A DNA stretch of 35,953 nt from Acidobacteriota bacterium (GTDB lineage Bacteria; Acidobacteriota; Vicinamibacteria; Vicinamibacterales; UBA8438). Below are positions 845 to 21,992 of this stretch, piece after piece. The translations under genes were made by a program, and so were the position numbers. The DNA lies in the NCBI GenBank assembly GCA_002712885.1, contig PAUN01000070.1:1-35953 (forward strand), read 5' to 3'. The stretch's first letter is position 1. Each line of letters begins with the position of its first letter. Under the pieces are notes generated by a model. It worked only from the letters and a program-made list of their open reading frames with translations, did not search any database and was not told where the DNA came from.

Positions 845-1035
845 GGGCGGGTATAAATACCCGCGGCCACGGAGTGGAGCACTCGGGGTCCCTGCGGAGC
901 CGCCGCGTGGGGCCCTGGGCAAAGCGCCGTCAAAGCAGGCGGCACCGCCGCCCAGGCGCGCGACAATGCGCGCCCCGCGGGCCCGGAGTGAGGCTCTGGG
1001 GTCCCCGCGAGGGCCCGCGTGGGGTTCGGGACGTA
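845..1035. ncRNA. Candidate structured RNA / repeat element: tandem GC-rich hairpins with two diverged copies of one hairpin unit
   Basis: Hairpins by eye: GCGGGTA-TAAA-TACCCGC (847-864), GAGTG-GAG-CACTC (872-884), GGCGGC-ACC-GCCGCC (938-952), GGCGCGC-GACAAT-GCGCGCC (955-974). Related units ggagtggagcactcggggtccctgcggagccgccgcgtggggccctggg (871-919) and ggagtgaggctctggggtccccgcgagggcccgcgtggggttcggg (985-1030), each foldable as CCC-GCG...CGC-(GT)-GGG. No convincing CDS covers it. Confidence 0.5.
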
Positions 1036-1046
1036 GCTCCGTTTAA

Positions 1047-1253
1047 TCAAAGATATCGTGCAAGCTGCCGAATCGCTTGATAGAGCACGTCGGCGAGCTG
1101 GCGGACGAACGGCGTGACATCTTGCTCACTGACAGCGTCGGCCACCGTCACCGGATCGGTCAGTAGGAGCCAGATCGTGGCACCCGCCAACGCCGCCGCC
1201 AGCAGGCCGACCACGCCGGCGACGCTCATGCCAATCCGTACGAGGCTCATCAC
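1047..1253 (-). CDS. Small hypothetical membrane protein (68 aa)
   Basis: MMSLVRIGMSVAGVVGLLAAALAGATIWLLLTDPVTVADAV...: one hydrophobic segment then an amphipathic C-terminus; plausible small inner-membrane protein. Confidence 0.6.
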   Translation of the reverse strand: MMSLVRIGMSVAGVVGLLAAALAGATIWLLLTDPVTVADAVSEQDVTPFVRQLADVLYQAIRQLARYL

Positions 1254-21887: not shown

Positions 21888-21992
21888 GGTTTTCCGACGA
21901 GGCGTCCGTCTGGCGGCGTTACTTCGTCGGTCACAGCCCACCTGGCTGCTCCCTCCTCGCGCCTGACCAGACAGACGCCTCGTCAGAAAACC
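21888..21992 (-). repeat. 26-bp inverted repeat with 53-nt loop; fully pairs as minus-strand RNA
   Basis: ggttttccgacgaggcgtccgtctgg (21888-21913) versus ccagacagacgcctcgtcagaaaacc (21967-21992): 24/26 complementary in DNA, and both mismatches are G.U wobbles in minus-strand RNA. Confidence 0.75.

Follow-up and report, generated by a model that had tools for sequence, protein, structure and literature searches.

Background

The described systems that come closest to the element reported here are the REPs. GTAG REPs, which together with BIMEs are associated with RAYT, are single hairpins of 20-40 bp with a terminal GTAG tag on the stem; neighbouring ORFs often take their TAG stop codon from them, and their distance to gene 3' ends is <20 bp (PMC3733652). 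Where REPs are located between genes of the same strand, the distance to the downstream ORF is variable (PMC3733652). A further group, the CGTC-tagged REPs, consists of a single stem of 8-9 bp with A-T as its first and second pairs, and has no dedicated transposase (Di Nocera et al. 2013, PMC3733652). Moreover, E. coli REPs lying within 15 nt of a stop codon have been reported to stall ribosomes (PMC12306157). Another kind of repeat, the TAACTGA heptamer direct repeats of marine Beggiatoaceae, is found within a few nt of start codons, where ribosome-binding sites are rare (PMC4679880).

In this study, we report the identification and characterisation of R1, a structured repeat found in a window of 35,953 nucleotides (contig PAUN01000070.1, assembly GCA_002712885.1) from a member of the Vicinamibacterales (Acidobacteriota). 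R1 is a real, lineage-specific, structured and dispersed repeat, and apparently represents an undescribed high-copy repeat family of an uncultured lineage; a literature search for repeats in Vicinamibacterales found nothing. What is unusual about R1 is its polar placement, with one end against start or stop codons.

Results and discussion

Two tandem copies of R1 in the window

The region 845-1035 of the window was found to contain two tandem copies of a structured unit of ~94 nt, which was named R1 and defined from aligned copies (sequence GGCGCGCGACAATGCGCGCCCCGCGGCCGCGGAGTGGGGCACTCGGGGTCCCCGCGGAGCGGCCGCGTGGGGTTCGGGGCGCAGCCCCGTCTAA). The parts of the two copies are listed in Table 1. The first hairpin of copy 1 is replaced by an unrelated hairpin at 847-854/857-864 (GCGGGTAT/ATACCCGC), and the 3' ends of the copies read GTCAAA in copy 1 and GTTTAA in copy 2. 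Short hairpins without mismatches are formed at 847-854/857-864, at 938-943/947-952 and at 955-961/968-974. In copy 2 the long stem (977-984/1011-1018) is likewise perfect, and the 3' hairpin (1027-1032/1036-1041) has one mismatch. A linker similar to the hairpin at 938-952 also precedes R1 at two other loci (L023 and L025), in the flanks of other tandem copies.

Table 1. Positions of R1 and adjoining features in the window
Feature	Position	Strand	Basis or remark
R1 copy 1, degenerate	851-934	+	Covariance model R1, 56.8 bits, E 8e-8, filters off; inverted repeat I18
Linker hairpin between copies 1 and 2, GGCGGC-ACC-GCCGCC	938-952	+	Sequence
R1 copy 2, intact	955-1046	+	Covariance model R1, 94.6 bits, E 6e-14, filters off
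Helix P1 of copy 2, GGCGCGC-GACAAT-GCGCGCC	955-974	+	Sequence; helix 1 of covariation analysis
Helix P2 of copy 2, 977-984 with 1011-1018, encloses P3	977-1018	+	Covariation, 81 copies
Helix P3 of copy 2, 988-993 with 1003-1008, one A-C mismatch	988-1008	+	
Helix P4 of copy 2, CGGGAC-GTA-GCTCCG, one A-C mismatch and one G-T pair	1027-1041	+	Sequence; helix 5
Small membrane-type ORF, 67 aa, TGA stop 1047-1049 abuts R1 3' end	1047-1250	-	Antisense, stop-adjacent class

A sequence-only reading of this region had described multi-hairpin DNA with two diverged, related units, and the sequence, a repeat scan and the covariance model all bear this out. The two units are indeed related; the unit length of ~47 nt given there has to be revised to ~94 nt (851-934 and 955-1046), and the element end placed at 1035 was too early, as copy 2 reaches 1046, directly against the TGA stop of the 67-aa ORF. 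No Pfam family was found for this ORF, and a search of viral contigs returned no relatives of it. A strain-type contig (L002) shares 99.6% identity with the window over 2545 bp and has the appearance of a strain variant or duplicate contig. Near-identical contig pairs (about 99%) were noted in the host assembly, namely C77/C69, C78/C52, C70/C19 and C24/C55, which fits strain variants.

Fold, covariation and constrained strand

The + strand of 836-1045 was predicted to be more stable than its dinucleotide shuffles (z -3.24, 0/200), and the - strand less clearly so (z -1.90, 7/200). A covariance model was built from 81 copies of R1; both window copies are among these, so that the independent evidence for the family lies in the copies found by BLAST. 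The structure consists of four helices, P1, P2 enclosing P3, and P4, counted as five by the tool, and 94.0% of cells were paired across the 81 copies. Two-sided changes were seen at 12 pairs and in 73 cells, against 17.5 cells in shuffles (0/500 reaching 73) and at most 25 in slid controls, as assessed by pair counting on copies that share ancestry, with counts that are not independent and a relatedness that remains in the shuffle control. All eight pairs in the main part of P2 (helix 3) carried two-sided changes among the 81 copies.

In both parts of P2 (helices 2 and 3), 56 G-U pairs were counted against 11 A-C mismatches, and the P3 pair at columns 39-61 was U-G, U-A or C-G, never C-A; P1 and P4 had no bias of G-U over A-C. 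The G-U excess in the main stem indicates that the + strand is the structurally constrained one, either as RNA or as single-stranded DNA. A conserved extra hairpin directly 5' of R1, suspected by eye in some copies, was rejected, since the mean folding energy there equalled that of control stretches.

Copy number and distribution

The 3.8 Mb host genome gave 41 BLAST matches to the window segment, and R1 was present in 30 of 60 relatives searched in the same way. With the covariance model, 150 candidates were scored in the host genome and 100 matched at E<=0.01, some of them counted twice on near-identical contigs such as L002. At E<=1e-5 the model found R1 in 20/162 genomes of Vicinamibacterales. 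The repeat is high-copy in a few genera belonging to two families of this order, genera g1, g6, g7 and g23 having many copies and a single g8 genome several, these per-genome counts being lower bounds; none was found in g2 and g10. An exact 23-mer of R1 was found only in MAGs of Vicinamibacterales/Acidobacteria, apart from one chance match in Paraburkholderia that lacks the unit, and collections of plasmids and phages contained no match to R1.

The earlier reading had held that the hairpins were retained despite divergence, as in a selected RNA or a mobile palindromic repeat; the strong covariation together with the high-copy dispersal supports this, and the stable folding of the + strand and the many homologous copies in the host and related genomes point the same way.

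The 3' end of R1 lies against coding-sequence boundaries

The positions of R1 ends relative to genes were compared for the 138 copies flanked by a called gene at each end. The 3' end was located <=6 nt from a coding-sequence boundary in 55/138 copies and the 5' end in 8/138 (p 6e-11), with genes called from codon usage by a home-made program that had been trained on the fetched loci, with the strongest matches as the fetched copies, and with copies that are related, their counts therefore not independent. The pattern was first noticed within part of these data and then checked on further copies. In the host genome alone, whose copies are partly the same ones, the 3' end was within 6 nt of a boundary in 26/79 cases and the 5' end in 2/79. 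The second family, f14, gave 11/12 for the 3' end and 0/12 for the 5' end, and 8/10 newly fetched f14 copies (L210-L219) complied, one of the others being inside a called gene and one 94 nt away. The polarity was not clearly seen in genus g7, for which the sample was only 7 copies. Taken over these copies, roughly one third or more have the R1 3' end no further than 6 nt from a boundary, and the 5' end is rarely found there.

About half of the R1 copies run opposite to the gene next to their 3' end. Such antisense copies adjoin the stop codon of that gene or provide one; read antisense, the R1 3' terminus is TTAGAC and contains TAG.

A second, unrelated palindromic repeat of ~105 nt, R2, was also observed, with a full copy at 21888-21992 of the window (GGTTTTCCGACGAGGCGTCCGTCTGGC...GACGCCTCGTCGGAAAACC). 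In genes free of R1, the GTTTCCTGGCGAGGCG-type end of R2 is over-represented immediately behind the stop codon, and a number of R1 copies have R2-like sequence in their flanks.

Sense copies as candidate gene leaders

Twenty-two sense R1 copies sit 0-7 nt upstream of start codons, and the genes preceded in this way include tatD, tilS and dnaJ as well as those for lipoyl E2, PolX, COX3, ArsA and purine nucleoside phosphorylase. These start codons are credible because the Pfam domain of TatD, lipoyl E2, DnaJ, PolX and ArsA already starts between residues 2 and 9. Shine-Dalgarno sequences are normal in the lineage, where AGGAG and GGAGG are strongly enriched; an SD-like motif was present at 1/22 R1-preceded starts versus 46% of 677 other genes (Fisher p 4e-5). 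R1 leaders also had a somewhat more open start region (unpaired 0.54 vs 0.42; p 0.006 for this interval, out of five compared). A GTCTAA-type motif pre-existing at start codons was rejected as the source of the signal, as R1-free starts had no enrichment of it. No precedent for the placement of R1 at start codons was found in the literature. From these observations, we infer that R1 may support translation of the downstream genes.

The explanation that we favour, and regard as probable, is that R1 is a miniature structured repeat, REP-like and non-autonomous, with its 3' end at gene boundaries and its sense copies serving as gene leaders. R1 would spread in single-stranded, folded form through the action in trans of separate machinery, and its 3' terminus GTCTAA, often followed by GTA, would be the joining end. 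Insertions would survive chiefly where the 3' end meets a gene boundary. The end of an antisense copy would then adjoin the stop codon of the gene or provide one through the TAG of TTAGAC, and a sense copy would become the immediate 5' leader, in which the Shine-Dalgarno sequence is replaced by a hairpin and an A/U-rich, relatively open start region. Initiation at such a leader would be Shine-Dalgarno-independent, possibly tuned by the hairpin. If the leader does support translation, a mobile repeat would be replacing a core expression signal of housekeeping genes.

A serious competitor, which in our estimate falls a little short of being probable, is that R1 is an ordinary REP-type mobile palindrome without leader function, its boundary position resulting from tolerated or targeted insertion and its genes being expressed less well or leaderless. 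This shares the repeat part of the favoured explanation and denies the leader step. The habit of GTAG REPs of providing TAG stops and lying <20 bp from gene 3' ends (PMC3733652) agrees with it, as does the fact that R2 also adjoins stop codons. However, REPs vary in their distance to the downstream ORF (PMC3733652), whereas 19/63 R1 copies followed at the 3' end by a sense gene are <=6 nt away from its start, and housekeeping genes keep R1 where the Shine-Dalgarno sequence would be. A bolder form of the leader explanation appears doubtful to us, namely that R1 is a mobile structured RNA or single-stranded DNA that is specifically joined by its 3' end to start and stop codons and brings along an SD-independent translation leader of its own, insertion before housekeeping starts being tolerated or useful.

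Persistence and possible mobility of R1

Comparison of orthologous gaps (L011 with L177, L028 with L129) revealed R1 in one species and none detectable in the other. The spacers at such gaps have diverged too far for junctions to be placed exactly, and an empty site that is clean at the nucleotide level was not found; several 'empty' orthologues (L132, L172, L115) retain a trace of the R1 3' end, so that some absences may be losses. These comparisons support, though not cleanly, a difference in R1 presence between related species.

Sixteen orthologous sites were occupied in two species. Among the pairs at these sites, 11 had changed compensatorily, 19 had changed on one side and were still paired, and 38 were broken. 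With 38 broken pairs against 30 changed but kept, many R1 copies decay and need not function in place, as expected of an ordinary mobile palindrome. The changes on both sides of a pair may be due to constraint at the site or to one copy having been replaced by another.

These sites also bear on the idea that R1 is a chromosomally selected cis-regulatory RNA, such as a riboswitch-like or protein-binding leader, and not a mobile repeat. The covariation, the + strand bias and the orthologous copies kept across species with 11 compensatory pair changes would all suit such an RNA, but we judge it quite unlikely, since the genes downstream of R1 have no common pathway, about half of the copies are oriented against the 3'-side gene, tandem arrays occur, presence varies from species to species, and replacement by another copy could account for the two-sided changes.

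For the favoured REP-like repeat, the mobilising machinery was sought in several ways. No target-site duplication was detected at R1 ends. The host genome had no match to Y1_Tnp (PF01797) and none to TnpB (PF07282), the control for the latter working. Y1 transposases are present in 10/28 genomes of relatives in the family, and the Y1 loci fetched from these had no R1 within about 1.5 kb. Association with RAYT was therefore rejected, Y1_Tnp being absent from the host genome and unlinked in relatives. The earlier description of the element as an orphan holds only insofar as no gene for its mobilisation was detected.

Two further identities were rejected. R1 is not a MITE, as its ends are not mutual inverted repeats and there is no signal of target-site duplications, although those of old insertions could have decayed. 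Integron attC sites have the core site RYYYAAC, which the R1 end GTCTAAC fits; the other end of R1 has no matching core site, and the copies are dispersed. At L066 and L222, and also at L067, a GC-rich hairpin resembling a terminator (AAAAAGGCCCCGGCCC...) comes after R1, and the site is orthologous between two genera.

Relation to REPs and other known elements

Being high-copy, extragenic, palindromic and dispersed, R1 is REP-like in kind, and it lacks the defining features of the named REP classes for which it was tested. With GTAG REPs and BIMEs it shares high-copy dispersed extragenic palindromes, proximity to stop codons, tandem arrangement and termini able to give a stop codon. Unlike their single hairpin of 20-40 bp, R1 is a 94-nt unit of four helices; it has no terminal GTAG tag on its stem, the consensus ending in GTCTAA, and it differs from them in its polar 3' adjacency and start-codon placement. 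In contrast to RAYT-associated REPs, no Y1/RAYT was found in the R1 host or beside the copies in relatives. The CGTC-tagged REPs (PMC3733652) resemble R1 in that no dedicated transposase was found and in having CGTC at one end and CCA at the other. The CGTC of R1, however, follows the last stem at the 3' end, with its C-G forming part of that stem, and R1 has four helices with GC stems in place of the single A-T-initiated stem. R1 would also bear on how REPs without a transposase spread. The TAACTGA repeats of Beggiatoaceae (PMC4679880) likewise lie close before start codons where ribosome-binding sites are rare, but these are heptamers without sequence relation to the four-helix R1.

The sequence-only reading had also seen a resemblance to HEARO/OMEGA RNAs, which was not supported. 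At gathering thresholds Rfam gave no match in the window, and at E up to 5 nothing overlapped the R1 element within 700-1400, HEARO included; the HEARO model RF02033 had no match in the whole host genome. A search of the host genome for RRXRR/IscB (PF14239) gave no match, its positive control being likewise silent. That R1 is an orphan HEARO/omega RNA working in trans with an IscB or TnpB is hardly credible: the GC-rich multi-hairpin fold and the many, mostly ORF-less copies are shared, but R1 has no HEARO match in window or genome, no detected nuclease gene (TnpB being absent from the genome) and, at 94 nt against a model of 211 positions, less than half the length, and the link is rejected as far as tested.

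Upstream of R1, at 2-781 of the window (+ strand), an ion-channel-like 'pseudogene' is open except for two in-frame TGA codons, one after LE and one in MY*AVVTMTTVGYGD. Tryptophan would presumably fit both positions, judging from such channels, and both TGA codons are shared by the strain-type contig L002.
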